Source: Paludibacter sp. 47-17
Lineage (GTDB): Bacteria > Bacteroidota > Bacteroidia > Bacteroidales > Paludibacteraceae
Direction: 5' to 3'
DNA: 64,000 nucleotides
Assembly (NCBI GenBank): GCA_001898935.1
Contig: MKVT01000006.1
Location: forward strand, 62,001-126,000
Both the position numbers and the translations under genes were made by a program. Positions within the stretch are counted from its first letter, which is position 1, and each line of letters starts with the position of its first letter. The notes under the pieces are model-generated. The model was not told where the DNA came from. It made no database searches and was given only the letters and a program-made list of their open reading frames with translations. Of this stretch, positions 53,551 to 64,000 are shown one piece after another.

Positions 53551-54459
53551 ATGAGTAGTAACATTGACATTCAAAAGAAATGTATGTGGTGTGGACAGGT
53601 TTTTACAGCACATAAGATGAGCACCTCCTGTTGCTCACACAAGTGCGCCAGTGCAGCGTACAAAGACCGAGTGAGAAAAGAACGCGTTGCAGCCTATCAG
53701 AAAGAGCAATCCATCCAAGAACTAAACGAGCCTATAAAGGATTTGGAGCAAAAAGAGTTTTTTACTCCCACCGAAGCGGCCAAGCTTTTAGGAGTTAGTC
53801 GTGCCAGTATTTATCGTTACATGGCGGACAATACAATAAAGGCGGTTCAATTCAAGGGAAAAACACTTATCAGGCGAAAGGATATTGATGCCTTATTTGA
53901 GAATCCGGTTTCTTACAATAAAAGGCATCCTAAAGAACGTGCTCCCATCACCGAGTTCTACACCACCGCCGAAGTCAAAGAAAAGTATAACGTCAAAGAT
54001 TCATGGATATTCGTAGTCGCCAAGAAGCATAATATCCCCCGGACATTCAATCGTGGTAAAACCTATTGGAGCAAAAAGCACATCGACAACTACTTTGCCA
54101 AAAAAGCCGCTGACCCGGAAATAACGGAATGGTACACGGTAGCAGAAATTCAAGAGAAGTTCAGAATGACTTTGGCTTCCATCTATAGCCTTGCATCTTC
54201 AAATGCCATCCCTAAAAAGAAAGAGGGCATTATGGTCTATTACTCCAAGAAACATTTCGATATAGCCAAAGGGGTAGCCGAACCCGAAGAACCACAATAC
54301 TACACAGTGGCAGAAGCAATGGAGAAGTTCAATCTCACCCGTGACCAGCTATATCATTACGCAACCTACCATAATATTCCCAGAGTCAAGGTTGGCAAAT
54401 ACACCAAGATTTCCCGCCCAGAATTAGATAAACTGTTAGGCGCTCCCAAAATAGAGTAA
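53551..54459 (+). CDS. Four-domain excisionase-type HTH protein with N-terminal Cys cluster
   Basis: The 302-residue protein begins with a probable zinc ribbon (C11, C14, then C28 and C32 in SCCSHKC) and a basic helix, then four similar helix-turn-helix units of the MerR/excisionase type. They start at about residue 70 (FFTPTEAAKLLGVSRASIYRY), 136 (FYTTAEVKEKYNVKDSWIFVV), 194 (WYTVAEIQEKFRMTLASIYSL) and 250 (YYTVAEAMEKFNLTRDQLYHY). Each ends with a basic wing and an I/F-D-rich helix. Such proteins accompany integrative elements in Bacteroidota, but no integrase is adjacent here. Four phased TGAGAC boxes stand just upstream. It is convergent with the exporter operon. Confidence 0.88.
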   Translation: MSSNIDIQKKCMWCGQVFTAHKMSTSCCSHKCASAAYKDRVRKERVAAYQKEQSIQELNEPIKDLEQKEFFTPTEAAKLLGVSRASIYRYMADNTIKAVQFKGKTLIRRKDIDALFENPVSYNKRHPKERAPITEFYTTAEVKEKYNVKDSWIFVVAKKHNIPRTFNRGKTYWSKKHIDNYFAKKAADPEITEWYTVAEIQEKFRMTLASIYSLASSNAIPKKKEGIMVYYSKKHFDIAKGVAEPEEPQYYTVAEAMEKFNLTRDQLYHYATYHNIPRVKVGKYTKISRPELDKLLGAPKIE

Positions 54460-56732: not shown

Positions 56733-58118
56733 CTATTTTTCTCCTTTAGATTTTAAATTATCAAACAGTCTTTCGATAAGCCGTTTGCGCTTGGTGATGA
56801 TTTCGGCGGTACCTTTACTTTCAAAGTCAAGAGGAAGTGTTTTGCCAAAATTTGTAACCGTACCTTCCGGAAAAGAAATTACAACTAAATAGGCATCTAC
56901 ATCTCCATTTGAGGTTTTCAATCTATTTGTAACCCTAGACACGGATTTAACGATACCTTTCAGTAGTCCGTATTCATCGTAAGGATAGTTATTAATTTTC
57001 ACATTAGCAGTTTGCCCTACTTCTACTTTTCCGGCGCCGAATGATGGAATCATTACTTCACCCAAGATGTTATTTTTATCAGGAATAATAGAGAAAAGTT
57101 CCTGTCCCGCTTGTACAAAACTATTGTCCCGCCAGAAACCGAGATATTCTAATTCACCCTCTATGGGCGCATATTGTAAGTAACGTTCTTTCCATAGATT
57201 TATGGAGTTTTCCAATTCGTTTTTTCGTGTGATATAATCAGAATAAGCTTTTTCTTTGGCCTCGGTTTCTTCTAAAAGAGTGCGTTGTATTTCCAAATGA
57301 TTGCGGGCAACTTCCGACTGTTTCATTTGCTGGCTGCTTTGTAAATTTAATCGGGCTTCCTGAAGAGATAGATGAGTATTTTGCTGCTGTTTGTATTCTT
57401 GTTCACTAATGCCTTTCGCTGCAAGTAAGACACTATCTTTTTGTAACTGATCAGCGGAAACATGAAGAATCTGATTTTTAAGTTGCACTTCATTATTCAA
57501 ATTCGCAACAACAGCCTCATCTGATTGGATTTGCTGGCGGAGGTTTTGCCGCATAGTGGTATAAATATCTGATGAGACCAATCGTTTATATTGAAAAAAA
57601 GCAAGAAGGAAAGCATTGTAGGAAGAACTGACTTCACCAAGTATCAGTGTGTTTGGCAAAGATATTTTAGCGGATAAATTCCTGTTTAAACGATTGAGTA
57701 CGGTGTCCACCAACAGGATATGTTTATAGTCAGCTCCGCTTTCCATGTAAGCAATCACATCCCCTTTTTGTAGTTGTGTTTTATTACTTTGAAGGAGGGT
57801 AATGCGTCCGTTGCCGTTTGCAACCAAGCGAACAGGAGCCGTTGTAGCTGTCACAGATATTTGCCCATCGACTGTATCGGGATATTGTATCAGAAAACCC
57901 AGCAGAATAATTATACCCATTAAAATGCCTACACAAAGGACTACCCATTTAGTCCAATAAGTAGGCATTCGATCTATAATAGCTTGTACTTCTTCCGACT
58001 TCTGACTTAAATCGTCATGTTTATTTGGTTCTTCTACTTGATTTTCCGGTATTACAGCCGGTAGAGATGAGTGTATGGGAGTGTCTTGCTTGTTTTTATT
58101 GTATTCGTTGCTTATCAT
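56733..58118 (-). CDS. HlyD family periplasmic adaptor of the exporter
   Basis: Membrane fusion proteins link the ABC exporter with an outer-membrane channel. The 461-residue protein has a cytoplasmic N-terminus, one membrane helix (about 60-82, WVVLCVGILMGIIILLGFLI), a lipoyl-type half (VRLVANGNGRITLLQSNKTQLQKGDVIAYM), a long coiled-coil hairpin (about 180-310) and a beta-barrel half (GEVMIPSFGAGKVEVGQTANVKIN). It overlaps the upstream glycosyltransferase by four bases and precedes the ABC gene by three. Confidence 0.93.
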   Translation of the reverse strand: MISNEYNKNKQDTPIHSSLPAVIPENQVEEPNKHDDLSQKSEEVQAIIDRMPTYWTKWVVLCVGILMGIIILLGFLIQYPDTVDGQISVTATTAPVRLVANGNGRITLLQSNKTQLQKGDVIAYMESGADYKHILLVDTVLNRLNRNLSAKISLPNTLILGEVSSSYNAFLLAFFQYKRLVSSDIYTTMRQNLRQQIQSDEAVVANLNNEVQLKNQILHVSADQLQKDSVLLAAKGISEQEYKQQQNTHLSLQEARLNLQSSQQMKQSEVARNHLEIQRTLLEETEAKEKAYSDYITRKNELENSINLWKERYLQYAPIEGELEYLGFWRDNSFVQAGQELFSIIPDKNNILGEVMIPSFGAGKVEVGQTANVKINNYPYDEYGLLKGIVKSVSRVTNRLKTSNGDVDAYLVVISFPEGTVTNFGKTLPLDFESKGTAEIITKRKRLIERLFDNLKSKGEK

Positions 58119-58810
58119 TTGTTATTGGCACTTTTTCTAAATTTGTTTGCTACATAATGGATTACTCCTAACCGGTTATCGGTCTGTCTGAAATGATTGG
58201 TAATCATCCCTGATATTTCATTATTTGAACGAGTAACATCGGAGTAGCCAAAATCTTTTTGAATGGAAATGAAAGGATAGATAGTCATTTTATCTTTGGT
58301 TATAACTGATAAAACACCATCGGCAGTATCCGAGTCTTTGAAATCATAATCCAGTATTTTCTGAAAAAGCGGTTTGAAGACAACAATAAACTGTGTACAC
58401 CAAAACCAATCTACCCAGTATCGATTAGTATCAACAGGTACGGCATTACCAAATCCCCCAATACCACCCGAAAGTAAATCAGGACATTGTTTATTAGCTT
58501 CAATAATATTGGTAAAAAAATATTCTTGACAGTAAAACGGAGTAAAGATGTGGTCATCTTCGCAGATAATCATAATATCATCATCCCGCTCTATGGCTGT
58601 TTGTACTGCTTTTACCATGCTTTGCCACAGCCCAACTGCTCCAATAGAATGCTCTACAGCTTCTATCCATTCAATTTCAAATTCCGGTTTATCAAGAAAT
58701 TGCTCTTCTATGTGTTTTCGCCGTTCTCTGCGGTCTTTGAGATTAATGATATATACAGGAAGGTAGAAATCATTTAAATTATCAGCCATTTTTCTTTTTA
58801 TAGTTTTCAA
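58115..58810 (-). CDS. GT25-like glycosyltransferase
   Basis: The 231-residue protein resembles LPS/collagen galactosyltransferases of family GT25: VYIINLKDRRERRKHIEEQ near the N-terminus, GAVGLWQSMVKAVQTAI, and the metal-binding-type IICEDDHIF. No membrane segment. The start could be the internal ATG at 58789. It overlaps the GT4 gene by 29 bases and the HlyD gene by four, so it is made together with the exporter. The acceptor may be a glycan or the secreted protein of this cluster; the sequence does not say which. Confidence 0.82.
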   Translation of the reverse strand: MKTIKRKMADNLNDFYLPVYIINLKDRRERRKHIEEQFLDKPEFEIEWIEAVEHSIGAVGLWQSMVKAVQTAIERDDDIMIICEDDHIFTPFYCQEYFFTNIIEANKQCPDLLSGGIGGFGNAVPVDTNRYWVDWFWCTQFIVVFKPLFQKILDYDFKDSDTADGVLSVITKDKMTIYPFISIQKDFGYSDVTRSNNEISGMITNHFRQTDNRLGVIHYVANKFRKSANNK

Positions 58811-59882
58811 CTGTATCCTCTAAAATTTTATTTACTTTCTCACTCCAGACATCCCAGTTCAGTCTCGTTTCATACTCATGACGAGATGATGCCCGAAGTT
58901 TCAGATAACTTTCCTTATCACTAAATACTGTCTTTATTTTTTCAGCGTAATCTTCCGCCGTAGCCAGGGGGGGAAGTAAAAATCCGTTTTTACCTTCACG
59001 AACAGGCTGACTTACTCCACCCACATCAGCTGCTATACTTGGCACACCATAAGCAGAGGCTTCACAGAATACGATGCCGAAAGGTTCAAATTTTGTCGGC
59101 AGGATAAGAAAATGCGATTTTCTTAAAATCTGCCCCAGTTTGTCTAAATCTTCTTTTTTAGATTTATCTAAATGAGGAATAATAATCAAATCATTATCAA
59201 CTTCTAATTTATATTCCGGAGTTGAACCTATAATTGTTAAAGTGCACCTTATTTCCTCTTGCTTCAGTAAGCGATAGACATCTAAAACTTTAACACCGCC
59301 TTTTCGTTGCCATTCTTTTCCGATATAAACTAAATTACAAGCATCTGTACGGATGTCAATCTCATATTCTGATAGAGCTGGAATATTTGCCCCAAATTCA
59401 ACAACATGGGTTTTTTCTTTTTTACAAGAATAATCATTAACAGCACTTTCTTTAGCCCAATTTGAAGAAAAAATAACACTATCTGCGTTTTCTATCATCT
59501 TCCTTTCAATTTCATCAGCCGTTTCTTCAAATTCCTTTGATGGTAAGGACATATTATCCTTAAATAAGCGAAAAGTAGTATCTCCTATATAAATTATCGG
59601 TATACTTACATCCAAGTATGCCCCCAAAAAGTAGTCTCGGACAATTACGACATCAAAATTATATCTGTTTATCCTTTCTGAGAGAATACTGCCATATAGC
59701 TGAGCGTAAAACTCGGGATAGTATTCTACCTTGGAACGATAAGCATAAGATTGGGAAACCACATTATCCCCAATCCATTCTACTGTGTTTTGTTTAGCTA
59801 AGAAAGCTGTCATATGATATAAAGTGCCTGACCAACTCTTTATATCAAATGGATTTAAGTATGATAGGAAACAAATATCCAT
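58782..59882 (-). CDS. GT4 glycosyltransferase
   Basis: The 366-residue protein has the GT-B fold of family 4. The N-terminal half contains VVIVRDYFLGAYLDV and NADSVIFSSNWAKESAVND; the C-terminal half has NLVYIGKEWQRKGGVKVLDVY (donor-site GKxxxRKGG), ILPTKFEPFGIVFCEASAYGVP (the EPFGxxxxE motif) and DVGGVSQPV. It is the first gene after a 261-bp gap and starts the run GT4, GT25-like, HlyD, ABC. No clear TAnnTTTG box stands directly before it. Confidence 0.9.
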   Translation of the reverse strand: MDICFLSYLNPFDIKSWSGTLYHMTAFLAKQNTVEWIGDNVVSQSYAYRSKVEYYPEFYAQLYGSILSERINRYNFDVVIVRDYFLGAYLDVSIPIIYIGDTTFRLFKDNMSLPSKEFEETADEIERKMIENADSVIFSSNWAKESAVNDYSCKKEKTHVVEFGANIPALSEYEIDIRTDACNLVYIGKEWQRKGGVKVLDVYRLLKQEEIRCTLTIIGSTPEYKLEVDNDLIIIPHLDKSKKEDLDKLGQILRKSHFLILPTKFEPFGIVFCEASAYGVPSIAADVGGVSQPVREGKNGFLLPPLATAEDYAEKIKTVFSDKESYLKLRASSRHEYETRLNWDVWSEKVNKILEDTVENYKKKNG

Positions 59883-60780: not shown

Positions 60781-61326
60781 CTAAGCTGATATTTGCATTG
60801 TTATTCCGCTACTCCCATAAGAACCTAGAAAATTTCTAAGTTGATCCATCATATTCTTGCTTCCAGTTACTGTAGATTCTCCTGTTGTTGAGTTGTAATA
60901 CCCAGTAGTTCCCGGTAGCAGACACCCTGTTGTATCATCACCAGTATTTCCTAAGTGTATTTTAATATTTGTACGTCCTTCCACTCCAGTTACCTCATAA
61001 TAACCAGTTTGCCCATTAAAAGTGCTCGGGACAACATTATATGTTCCATATTTAATGGCTGTGTCAGAATTTTCGACAGTACTCCTATCATAATCTACAG
61101 TAGGTTCTAAAAACATACCAGACATAGATGATATGACATTTCCGTTATCATCATAAGCAGTTGCTAAGAAATAACTCATTGTCGAGTTATCTCCATAAAA
61201 AGACCGATTCACAGTTATTTTCACTGTTCCTCCTCCAATAAATGAGCTTTGTACCTCTTCGCTTAACACCGGCATTTTTTTTGCCAATTCAGTTAAACTT
61301 TCTACTGTTACTTTTCTTCTTTTCAT
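60781..61326 (-). CDS. Double-glycine-leader protein with DUF5675-like mature domain
   Basis: The 181-residue protein has a leader of the double-glycine type: a charged helix (SLTELAKKMPVLSEEVQSSF, residues 10-29) ending in IGGG (30-33), with the expected C39 cut after GG. The mature part of about 150 residues matches DUF5675 as I know it: DTAIKYGTYNVVPS (88-101, for the family's TAIPxGTYxV), then IKIHLGNTGDDTTGCLLPG (121-139, for IHxGNxxxDTxGCxLxG), and a final SKNMMDQLRNFL. H124, T133 and C135 recall the HxG...S/TxGC site of L,D-transpeptidases. C135 is the only cysteine, so lanthionine or disulfide bridges within one chain are excluded. It lies among glycosyltransferase genes in the exporter cluster. 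Confidence 0.85.
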   Translation of the reverse strand: MKRRKVTVESLTELAKKMPVLSEEVQSSFIGGGTVKITVNRSFYGDNSTMSYFLATAYDDNGNVISSMSGMFLEPTVDYDRSTVENSDTAIKYGTYNVVPSTFNGQTGYYEVTGVEGRTNIKIHLGNTGDDTTGCLLPGTTGYYNSTTGESTVTGSKNMMDQLRNFLGSYGSSGITMQISA

Positions 61327-61360: not shown

Positions 61361-62227
61361 TCAAGCTAATTCTAACTTGTTTTTATTTGTAATTAATATT
61401 TTTTGTAGGATTTGTAGCATTCCGCTAAAGCTAATTAACTCTTTTTCTTGAAGCTTGATTAAAACATTGAAGCATTCTTCAAATTCCGGATAATTGTCTT
61501 TATTTCTGTCTAAAAGCCAATTAAGCGTTTCAAGCAATATTTGCTCAGTAGTGGCTTTTTGCTCATTTCTTTTTTGATTAGTAACCTGCGTTTCTGAAAT
61601 TCTATAGTACAGCAATGGTTGGTTTTCGATATAAAACACACCGCCTAATTTTGCAATTTCAGTCCATAGTTTCATATCTTCGGCAGATGCATAGTTTTCG
61701 TATTGCAGGTGATTCTCCTTCCAAAAATCCTTTTGTACAAGTGCTGTAGGATGAAACATAAAATTTCCTTTTAGAAATTGTAGCAAGGGATATTCAACTA
61801 ATCCACTTATACTTCCAGCAATGTTTCCGGGAGGTATGTCCTTCCCAAAATGCTGCATCCATGTGCCACACACCGTAATGCTCTGTTCCGCTTCCATTAT
61901 TGCATGCTGGATTTTCAACCTGTCAGGGTGCATAATATCATCGGCATCCATACGGGCTATATATTTGCCTTGCGCTGCATCCATCCCAAGATTAAGCGAA
62001 GCGATAAAATCATGCCTATTTTTCAATAACACAATTCGTTTGTCATTGTAAGCGCGAATAATATCGCATGTAGTATCTGTAGAGCCATCATCCACAATGA
62101 TACACTCAAAATCTGTGAATGACTGACACATAATACTGTCTATAGCATCTCTGATATACATTGCTGCATTGTATGCCGGCATTACAATGGAGATAGTTGG
62201 TGTTTGCTTGTTATTATCTTCTGTCAT
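61361..62227 (-). CDS. GT2 glycosyltransferase
   Basis: The 288-residue protein is an EpsE/SpsA-like family 2 enzyme: ISIVMPAYNAAMYIRDAIDS, CIIVDDGSTDTTCDII, the DADDIMHPDRL metal motif and FWKENHLQYENYASAEDMKLW (the ED acceptor motif). No membrane helices. It lies nine bases after the GT4 gene and 34 bp before the GG-leader gene, so all three share a transcript. It could add a sugar to the neighbouring protein, as GT2 enzymes do in glycocin clusters, or to a polysaccharide. Confidence 0.9.
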   Translation of the reverse strand: MTEDNNKQTPTISIVMPAYNAAMYIRDAIDSIMCQSFTDFECIIVDDGSTDTTCDIIRAYNDKRIVLLKNRHDFIASLNLGMDAAQGKYIARMDADDIMHPDRLKIQHAIMEAEQSITVCGTWMQHFGKDIPPGNIAGSISGLVEYPLLQFLKGNFMFHPTALVQKDFWKENHLQYENYASAEDMKLWTEIAKLGGVFYIENQPLLYYRISETQVTNQKRNEQKATTEQILLETLNWLLDRNKDNYPEFEECFNVLIKLQEKELISFSGMLQILQKILITNKNKLELA

Positions 62228-62236
62228 TACTGCATT

Positions 62237-63496
62237 TTATCTCTGGTTTAACTCTCTATAGACTTCGACGGTTCTGTTTACCATCAGTTCGAGATTTAAT
62301 TTCTCCTCATACAGTTTCCGGACATTTTTACTCAATATCTTTCTCAAATTTACATCCCTTATTAAGCGCATTAATTGGGCTGCCATCATTTCTACATCTA
62401 CAGAAAGTCCTAATACGGGAGAGAACTTCGTTTGTACTTTTAGAGCATTTACTTCATCTGTAAACATCTCGTCTAAGCCATCAATAGCCGTTGTTATGAT
62501 CGGTAAGCCGAACATAGCCATTTCTATTGCCACATAACTGGCTTGCTCTTGCAACGATGCAATTATTCCTATATCGCATGTTACATAAAGTTCTTTTAAT
62601 TCATCAAAAGGAATTCGCCCTTTTACATCAACTTCCAAATCAGGGAAATCCAGTTTCAATTTATTTCGAAACTGCGGATGGCAAGTTCCGGCAATGGTCA
62701 GTGAAACTTTGAAACCTTGCTGCTGCACCAAACGAAAGGCTTTTAGAATATACATAATACCCTTGCTCTCACTTACTACACCCACGAATAGACAGTGAAA
62801 TTTATCCTTCGGCGTTTTATCTTTTCGTGTCTTTACTAACAAATTGGAATCATTTATCCCATTAGGGACAACGCGTATATTATCAGAATAATCATGTATG
62901 CAGCTTTTTAGGAAATCTACAGCACAGTTGGTTACACATATTAGTGCATCGGGTGCCGTGTAGGATTGCATTTCACAATTATTGTTTACATAAATCTCAG
63001 AGGTTGGCTTTTCTGCATTTTCAGCATTACCGTAAGTTAACTCATAGAGTTTGTTGAAAAGTTTCTTATTGCTATCATACAGTCCTTTCCATGGAATGCA
63101 GTGAAGGTGAGTGATTATCTTGCAGCTAGTCAGTTCGCGGATATATACCGCCAAATCTATCAAATTAAGCGTATGTAAGTGGATAATGCAATTTTCTTTT
63201 CCTTCAAATAGATGTTTGGTAAGCCTATAAACCTGTTCGTTGTATTTCCGTATCCAGAAACGCTCAGCTATTATTGTGTTATACAGCTGCGGCATCGGGA
63301 TGCTGTATTTGATATAATAATCAATCTTTTCTTCTTTAGGAAAAAGCAGCATGTCGTCATTCCTAAGGTGTATCCAATGCACATATATCTCCGCAATATC
63401 CCGAAGTCCGCTAATCAGCGTATTTACATACCTGTCCACGCCGGAAGTATTAGAAGCTTGGGACATATCGAAAAGATATAGATTGATATTTGACAT
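62237..63496 (-). CDS. GT4 glycosyltransferase, possibly of GG-Bacteroidales peptide systems
   Basis: The 419-residue protein has the GT-B fold. The N-terminal half opens NINLYLFDMSQASNTSGVDRYV and contains KIITHLHCIPWKGLY; the C-terminal half shows DNIRVVPNGINDSN, CLFVGVVSESKGIMYILKAF, ASLQEQASYVAIEMAMFGLP and TTAIDGLDEMF. The overall character, and its place beside a double-glycine precursor, recall the glycosyltransferase family (TIGR04157) defined from GG-Bacteroidales peptide systems, but I cannot run that model. It lies six bases after the incomplete gene at the window edge. Confidence 0.85.
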   Translation of the reverse strand: MSNINLYLFDMSQASNTSGVDRYVNTLISGLRDIAEIYVHWIHLRNDDMLLFPKEEKIDYYIKYSIPMPQLYNTIIAERFWIRKYNEQVYRLTKHLFEGKENCIIHLHTLNLIDLAVYIRELTSCKIITHLHCIPWKGLYDSNKKLFNKLYELTYGNAENAEKPTSEIYVNNNCEMQSYTAPDALICVTNCAVDFLKSCIHDYSDNIRVVPNGINDSNLLVKTRKDKTPKDKFHCLFVGVVSESKGIMYILKAFRLVQQQGFKVSLTIAGTCHPQFRNKLKLDFPDLEVDVKGRIPFDELKELYVTCDIGIIASLQEQASYVAIEMAMFGLPIITTAIDGLDEMFTDEVNALKVQTKFSPVLGLSVDVEMMAAQLMRLIRDVNLRKILSKNVRKLYEEKLNLELMVNRTVEVYRELNQR

Positions 63497-63502
63497 AATA
63501 TA

Positions 63503-64000
63503 TTATACTAAATTTGCACTTTTGTTTGTTAAATAAATCAGCAGTCTGCTGAGACCTTGTTCATATCCAGCTATATATGTTCCAGACGGGATTAGCGCTA
63601 AAATTTTTTTTTCAAAGTTCTTTTCTTTATTTTTTAAAAGTTGATTAATAAACTTATCGCTCTTTGAAAAATCAATATGGTTTCTTAAACTTGCATTCAC
63701 TAAAACAGAATATTGCTTATTATCTGTGATAACATCACAATATTTACCCAAATCATTAAATTTATGTAAATAATATGCAGATAAATAGCTACTTATTAAT
63801 CGTCCACTTCTATACAAATCTGCATAGTCATTTAGAACTACCCGTGAATAATCTCCATATTTACAGTCGTAAACAATTTTTAAATAGGTATTAAACTTTG
63901 ATAATACCGTAGTCTTATTATTTACATAATGTATGTCTCTGAAATCAAAAAAATGAGTAGCTAAATAAAGCTCATTAGCTTCAAAGATGTTTTTTATCGC
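63503..64000 (-). CDS. Unidentified protein, C-terminal part (cut by window edge)
   Basis: The minus-strand frame is open from the stop at 63503 to base 64000, giving 166 residues without a start; a TTG at 63817 inside it is not needed. The visible part is Lys-, Asn- and Tyr-rich and helical, with SRVVLNDYADLYRSGRLI, LSAYYLHKFNDLGKYCDV and the end YIAGYEQGLSRLLIYLTNK. I do not recognise a family. The Gly-x-x-x-Gly-Leu end vaguely recalls LanC-like repeats, which is not enough for a call. It lies six bases before the GT4 gene, so it belongs to the cluster and might be a modification enzyme. Confidence 0.65.
   Translation of the reverse strand, partial: AIKNIFEANELYLATHFFDFRDIHYVNNKTTVLSKFNTYLKIVYDCKYGDYSRVVLNDYADLYRSGRLISSYLSAYYLHKFNDLGKYCDVITDNKQYSVLVNASLRNHIDFSKSDKFINQLLKNKEKNFEKKILALIPSGTYIAGYEQGLSRLLIYLTNKSANLV

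Follow-up and report, generated by a model that had tools for sequence, protein, structure and literature searches.

A double-glycine leader before exchangeable enzyme domains: a candidate polymorphic toxin locus with its own C39 exporter in Paludibacter and other Bacteroidales

Results

This study concerns an operon in a 64,000-nucleotide stretch of Paludibacter sp. 47-17 (assembly GCA_001898935.1, contig MKVT01000006.1, positions 62,001 to 126,000; hereafter the window), in which an open reading frame (ORF), here called the cargo, joins a double-glycine leader to a DUF5675 domain. An earlier note on this DNA had suggested that a whole enzyme-like protein is secreted through a bacteriocin-type route. 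Our sequence comparisons indicate that the leader, the exporter, a LanC-like protein and glycosyltransferases recur at other loci, while the enzyme and the secreted protein following it are exchanged, and we read the cargo as a probable antibacterial toxin of a polymorphic series.

The genes are transcribed in the order TolC, LanC-like, GT4b, GT2, cargo, SP208, GT4a, GT25, HlyD and C39-ABC (Table 1), so that C39-ABC, HlyD and TolC provide a complete type I secretion set within the operon. The C39 exporter that had been placed about 4 kb from the cargo does lie there, downstream (C39 domain, E 3.2e-33), and the glycosyltransferase cluster described around the cargo gene is confirmed by glycosyltransferases on either side of it. 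What had been overlooked is the signal-peptide gene directly downstream (SP208) and its candidacy for immunity, as well as a LanC-like gene at the edge of the window and TolC just beyond it. Among the matches listed, the exporter falls below the curated NCBIfam cut-offs of 25 families. LanC zinc ligands are defined as C...CH (PMC10352776), and the LanC-like protein of the window has two Cys and no CH motif.

The leader ends in three glycines at residues 31-33, as the earlier note had it. An alignment of nine cargos, the one in the window and eight others, contains 11 invariant columns including both glycines, and the window leader is identical at 15 of 29 positions (E 5e-8) to the leader of a cargo with a non-aligning body (locus G258); these two results place the leader beyond chance. 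As in double-glycine/C39 cargos, it ends in GG and is common to cargos of other C39 loci. The N-terminus of the cargo lacks a hydrophobic stretch (best 10-residue mean 0.86), and C135 is the sole Cys of the protein. A genome scan found no second copy of the leader in the same genome, so there is no sign that the two other C39 exporters encoded there use it. No relative was found in the first cargo scan of the genome contigs, NCBIfam lists no family for the cargo, and 6 of 48 genus genomes match the cargo somewhere. Further proteins joining this leader to DUF5675, which the earlier note had proposed to seek, did not emerge: the window ORF alone is common to our lists of leader ORFs and DUF5675 domains, and the combination turned up in no second genome.

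The DUF5675 assignment is firmly upheld by PF18925, which scores 64.4 bits over residues 39-165 (cut-off 26.7, E 1.1e-17), and phrog_1501, of function unknown, matches residues 38-179 (E 1.6e-13). H124 and C135 sit in HLGNTGDDTTGC, as had been pointed out. The predicted structure aligns by VIA-align to L,D-peptidases far above unrelated chains, with Csd6 as the second-best match and a viral structural neighbour carrying the name L,D-carboxypeptidase/transpeptidase; by this model the DUF5675 domain that forms the mature part adopts an L,D-peptidase-like fold. Alignment of 39 DUF5675 domains shows H124, G134 and C135 conserved at 90% or more, and hence a conserved His-Cys pair. The likeness to L,D-transpeptidases claimed earlier survives in the fold and in a weak profile comparison in which the YkuD His falls on H124 and the YkuD Gly-Cys on G134-C135. 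It fails at the family level, where Pfam gives no match of the cargo to PF03734 (YkuD) at E up to 1. The L,D-transpeptidase signature is H, 14-17 residues, (S/T)HGC (PMC9638812); in the cargo H124 and C135 are 11 positions apart and the second motif is TTGC. Searches of PDB sequences with the cargo and with the 39-row DUF5675 alignment returned no L,D-peptidase, and we do not class the cargo as a member of the YkuD family. The DUF5675 region was matched in 2 plasmid and 5 phage records, with none of these matches covering the leader. One microvirus record has a DUF5675-like match at an unannotated site (MT135437.1:305-517), and in the literature covered DUF5675 is mentioned by two papers, each of them about Vibrio phages.

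The cargo stop and the start of SP208 are ten bases apart, with GGAGG toward the stop, as expected for coupled genes. The hydrophobic start of SP208 (best 10-residue mean 3.43) resembles a signal peptide and points to the periplasm. Pfam gave SP208 no match to Imm57 or Imm16 and listed PF19647 alone (E 0.09), NCBIfam gave a weak family only (E 0.11), and Foldseek found no match to its model at E up to 0.001, so its fold is left unnamed. Scans with SP208, run without DUF5675 in the query, match 5 of 395 genomes class-wide and, with a five-row alignment, 4 of 48 genomes of the genus, giving 8 distinct places in all. Five of these lie directly behind DUF5675 (G000, G388, G426, G830, G782), two lie inside leader-cargo loci that have no DUF5675 there (G258, G819), and at the last, weak place (G305, E 2e-4) neither DUF5675 nor a leader cargo was seen beside it. 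Seen from the other side, SP208 stands behind 7 of the 55 distinct DUF5675 domains that have at least 450 nt of downstream sequence, at gaps of -79 to +21 nt as measured between stop-to-stop frames, not start codons.

These seven SP208-linked domains and one other form a clade of eight in a tree of 58 domains (support 99/94), and the linkage label needs 2 changes on the tree against a shuffled mean of 6.7. Besides the window, the seven comprise two proteins that Pfam confirms as RHS (L139, L140), a protein with an RHS-like end by eye for which Pfam lists DUF5675 only (L071), a separate ORF behind an RHS-like end (L049), a copy cut by a contig end (L050) and a degraded copy (L144/L121); the eighth member (L043) is an RHS protein followed by a different lipoprotein-like gene. 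The front ORF at L049 was called an RHS end by eye only and has no Pfam hit at E up to 0.01. The earlier note had counted leaderless relatives with the same gene neighbours as evidence against its reading. Such relatives keep SP208; among the loci examined, the exporter lies beside only the degraded copy L144. The repeated pairing with DUF5675 suggests that SP208 is a periplasmic immunity protein.

The earlier note had missed that enzymes are exchanged while leader and exporter stay constant. On a contig of Bacteroidales bacterium SW299 (G258), an exporter 81% identical to that of the window is accompanied by HlyD, TolC, LanC-like and GT4b genes, and the cargo has a leader 52% identical before a CHAP-like body (23.8 bits, cut-off 26), with an SP208 homologue of 37-38% identity downstream. 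A scan with two LanC-like proteins revealed 12 loci labelled Proteiniphilum, Tannerella forsythia, Paludibacter and other Bacteroidales, whose cargo bodies are CHAP-like (L083 in Proteiniphilum acetatigenes DSM 18083, and L086), carry HExxH (L078, L081, L082) or are unnamed (L079, L080, L081, L084). The leader profile found 14 places in 6 of 393 genomes of the order and hits in 3 of 48 genus genomes. Further bodies behind the leader carry HExxH (L102 twice, L105, L107) or are papain-like, mostly by eye and below Pfam cut-offs (L103, L106 twice, L142). One cargo (L082) exceeds the cut-off of the Pfam toxin family Tox-MPTase2 (25.7 against 25) and another (L105) stays below it at 22.2, while 6 of 10 cargos in one Pfam scan and three in another had no informative family or none. 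Such a constant N-terminus with exchanged C-terminal domains is a hallmark of polymorphic toxins. At L079:11866-16703 (Tannerella forsythia ATCC 43037) two leader cargos stand in tandem, and after each of them comes a secreted protein of about 600 aa.

The gene following the cargo is also of a recurrent kind. Counting fragments, there are 28 distinct leader ORFs. For 24 of them an ORF of 100 aa or more follows within 500 nt (the other 4 were left out), and 22 of these 24 downstream ORFs begin with a signal-peptide-like hydrophobic stretch, against 31 of 93 in the background (12/46 plus 19/47), at a hydropathy cut-off of 2.3 set post hoc (lowest counted value 2.31). The Fisher p of 1.8e-7 for this excess is only a guide, because the cut-off was post hoc, several ORFs come from one genome and fragments are among them. 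Two of the 24 differ, namely a 54-aa fragment in L078 and a leader in L138 whose next ORF is transposase-like. Also at L138, a zincin-like cargo precedes a 407-aa secreted protein (L138:17824-19047), hydrolase-like by eye and not small and immunity-like. Fourteen loci have a C39-exporter match, 13 of them with a glycosyltransferase and 12 with a LanC-like gene, in a census where two row pairs overlap or share a genome and many loci were picked via the LanC-like query; six loci found by the leader alone (L106, L107, L109, L138, L141, L142) give 5/6 for each.

Traces of replacement are found at several of these loci. L078 holds two short ORFs with ends similar to that of its cargo, with a lipoprotein-like gene after each, and the two cargos of L102 match for about 116 residues, with one mismatch at most, before they diverge. 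On a contig of a metagenome-assembled genome labelled Paludibacter, the genus of the window (G819), an SP208 75% identical to that of the window lies between GT4a copies; the cargos of this locus are a zincin-like protein and a member of another family, with transposase-like genes in between, and DUF5675 was not found in that genome. At G793 the end of a C39-ABC gene is directly followed by a leaderless DUF5675 fragment and SP208. Displaced cassettes and orphan immunity genes of the kind known for polymorphic toxins are thus represented by L078, the G819 SP208 and L144. Taken together, the displaced ends, diverging twins, orphan SP208 and G793 fragment suggest that cassettes are replaced while immunity genes are retained.

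Table 1. Features of the operon; window positions unless a locus is named.
Feature	Position	Strand	Remarks
TolC	L002:3909-2437, outside window		PF02321
LanC-like protein, end only in window	63503..64000; whole at L002:2433-1504	minus	PF05147, E 1.4e-6, over cut-off
Glycosyltransferase GT4b	62237..63496	minus	nearest NCBIfam TIGR04157, below cut-off
Glycosyltransferase family 2 (GT2)	61361..62227	minus	PF00535
Cargo ORF, 181 residues	61326 (ATG) to 60781 (stop end)	minus
Double-glycine leader, cargo residues 1-33	61228..61326	minus	GG at 31-32, third G at 33
DUF5675 body of cargo	60784..61227	minus	L,D-peptidase-like fold (model); H124 and C135
SP208, 208 aa	60144..60770	minus	signal-peptide-like start; all-helical (predicted)
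Glycosyltransferase GT4a	58782..59882	minus	PF00534
Glycosyltransferase family 25-like (GT25)	58115..58810	minus	PF01755, 26.2 bits vs 24
HlyD-type adaptor, 461 aa	56733..58118	minus	PF13437; TIGR01843 below curated cut-off
C39 peptidase-ABC exporter, 728 aa	54543..56729	minus	PF03412, PF00664, PF00005

Discussion

Polymorphic toxins are carried by several secretion systems, and double-glycine exporters are regarded as peptide pumps. Double-glycine bacteriocins of peptidase-containing ABC transporters (PCAT) and class II microcins combine a double-glycine leader with a C39-ABC exporter, as the window locus does; their cargos are short peptides, whereas here a folded enzyme domain is exchanged between loci. 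Drawing on the leader, exporter, pairing and exchange seen in the sequences and on the modelled fold, we propose, with a probability of roughly 0.7, that the cargo is an antibacterial enzyme toxin addressed by its leader to its own C39-ABC/HlyD/TolC exporter, with SP208 as immunity protein, within a polymorphic Bacteroidales series. The exporter would cut off the leader after the double glycine and release a mature protein of about 148 residues via TolC. This domain would then attack peptidoglycan stem peptides in the periplasm of a competitor, and SP208 would neutralise the toxin in the periplasm of the producer. The locus belongs to the polymorphic toxin kind, set apart by its delivery module, and is larger than the earlier note had it.

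Several points weigh against this proposal. Toxicity, leader cleavage and neutralisation by SP208 are predictions only, and the toxin reading leaves unexplained how the outer membrane of the target would be crossed and why glycosyltransferases and a LanC-like protein are present. Leader and DUF5675 were found on one protein nowhere outside the window, with DUF5675 present in 46 of 395 class genomes, and SP208 is missing behind 48 of the 55 DUF5675 domains. A Foldseek search of PDB with the cargo model returned no match at E up to 0.001, so the fold call leans on a second look by VIA-align at Foldseek candidates. The profile pairing with YkuD has a probability of 10.6%, and His or Cys is absent from some DUF5675 domains.

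Three other explanations were considered. The operon could be a cluster for a ribosomally synthesized and post-translationally modified peptide (RiPP) or glycopeptide, whose glycosyltransferases and LanC-like protein decorate a secreted product, the enzyme-like body being a mere modification carrier. LanC-like genes are known in Bacteroidales RiPP regions, where mining has found LanC-like proteins without zinc ligands near carbohydrate enzymes (PMC10352776); the operon has such a gene, and the family nearest to GT4b is named for radical-SAM-linked Bacteroidetes clusters. However, no radical-SAM or LanB-type match occurred among the operon proteins scanned, the CH motif is missing, and the cargo bodies are different folded enzymes with a secreted protein after each, which renders this explanation improbable. 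It would be similarly surprising if the cargo were a secreted housekeeping or nutritional enzyme for cell-wall remodelling or proteolysis, with an accessory protein and no weapon. Many sister cargos do resemble general peptidases, and DUF5675 is also common without SP208, but bodies exchanged behind one leader, displaced toxin ends, SP208 kept without DUF5675, a leader as rare as 3 in 48 genus genomes, and the same domain and partner on RHS proteins count against this explanation. Least likely of all is a toxin with a target other than peptidoglycan, its fold retained and its activity lost or changed: the lack of a YkuD profile match, a His-Cys spacing shorter than the published motif (PMC9638812) and the domains without His or Cys would fit, but the conservation of H124, G134 and C135, the fold match, the name of the viral neighbour and the periplasmic destination suggested by the start of SP208 speak against it.

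More tentatively, at somewhat less than even odds, the loci may constitute a previously undescribed class of Bacteroidales polymorphic toxins, in which C39-exported exchangeable enzymes are glycosylated by operon glycosyltransferases with a LanC-like helper and opposed by periplasmic immunity. Zhang et al. 2012 described RHS proteins that carry L,D-peptidase toxins and have immunity genes linked to them, and also Tox-MPTases (PMC3482391). Their Tox-LD-peptidases share with our system the L,D-peptidase-class domain, the RHS architecture of relatives, linked immunity genes and occurrence in Bacteroidetes, but differ in their listed routes, the type II and type VI secretion systems (T2SS, T6SS) and TcdB/TcaC, and in their immunity proteins, Imm16 and Imm57. 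The available text of that paper has no match to 'T1SS' or 'type I secretion'. The T6SS effector Tlde1a is likewise antibacterial with an L,D-transpeptidase fold, and its closest structural homologue is Csd6; unlike the cargo, it is delivered by a T6SS, has a longer His-Cys spacing and SHGC, and bears no leader (PMC9638812). TANFOR toxins of the same phylum also combine a constant N-terminus, a variable toxin end and a downstream immunity gene, but they are large proteins and proposed substrates of the type IX secretion system, and C39, double-glycine and DUF5675 do not appear in the text available (PMC7073777). The Caulobacter Cdz bacteriocin is a protein bacteriocin for which type I secretion is mentioned; it consists of two surface-associated glycine-zipper proteins, not exchangeable enzymes (PMC5380434). 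No description of exchangeable enzyme toxins behind a double-glycine leader was found in the literature covered, which leaves out most subscription papers and bioRxiv.

A whole-enzyme series behind one double-glycine leader would unite polymorphic toxins with double-glycine exporters. DUF5675, of function unknown in Pfam, gains a likely role as an L,D-peptidase-like toxin and perhaps as a lysis enzyme in phages, SP208 becomes a named candidate immunity family, and the leader profile offers a tool for finding such loci. This raises the questions of what brings glycosyltransferases and a LanC-like protein together with the exporter, and by which route the secreted enzyme reaches the periplasm of a competitor.

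Some neighbouring observations are added here. Convergent with C39-ABC, an ORF at 53551-54459 on the plus strand with four HTH_17 stretches may be a regulator or unrelated. Upstream of TolC (L002:4594-6303), a tetratricopeptide repeat (TPR) protein with a helix-turn-helix (HTH)-like end, similar to BT3442-family regulators below cut-off, is possibly a regulator of the operon. Two other C39-ABC loci occur in the same genome. At L072:6643-12333 (C29), a second C39-ABC exporter and HlyD lie with hydrophobic proteins and with short ORFs that bear GG-like leaders; this is a conventional short-peptide bacteriocin-like locus. At L073:6041-10091 (C8), an HNH-like ORF of 145 aa stands immediately upstream of a third C39-ABC/HlyD pair.
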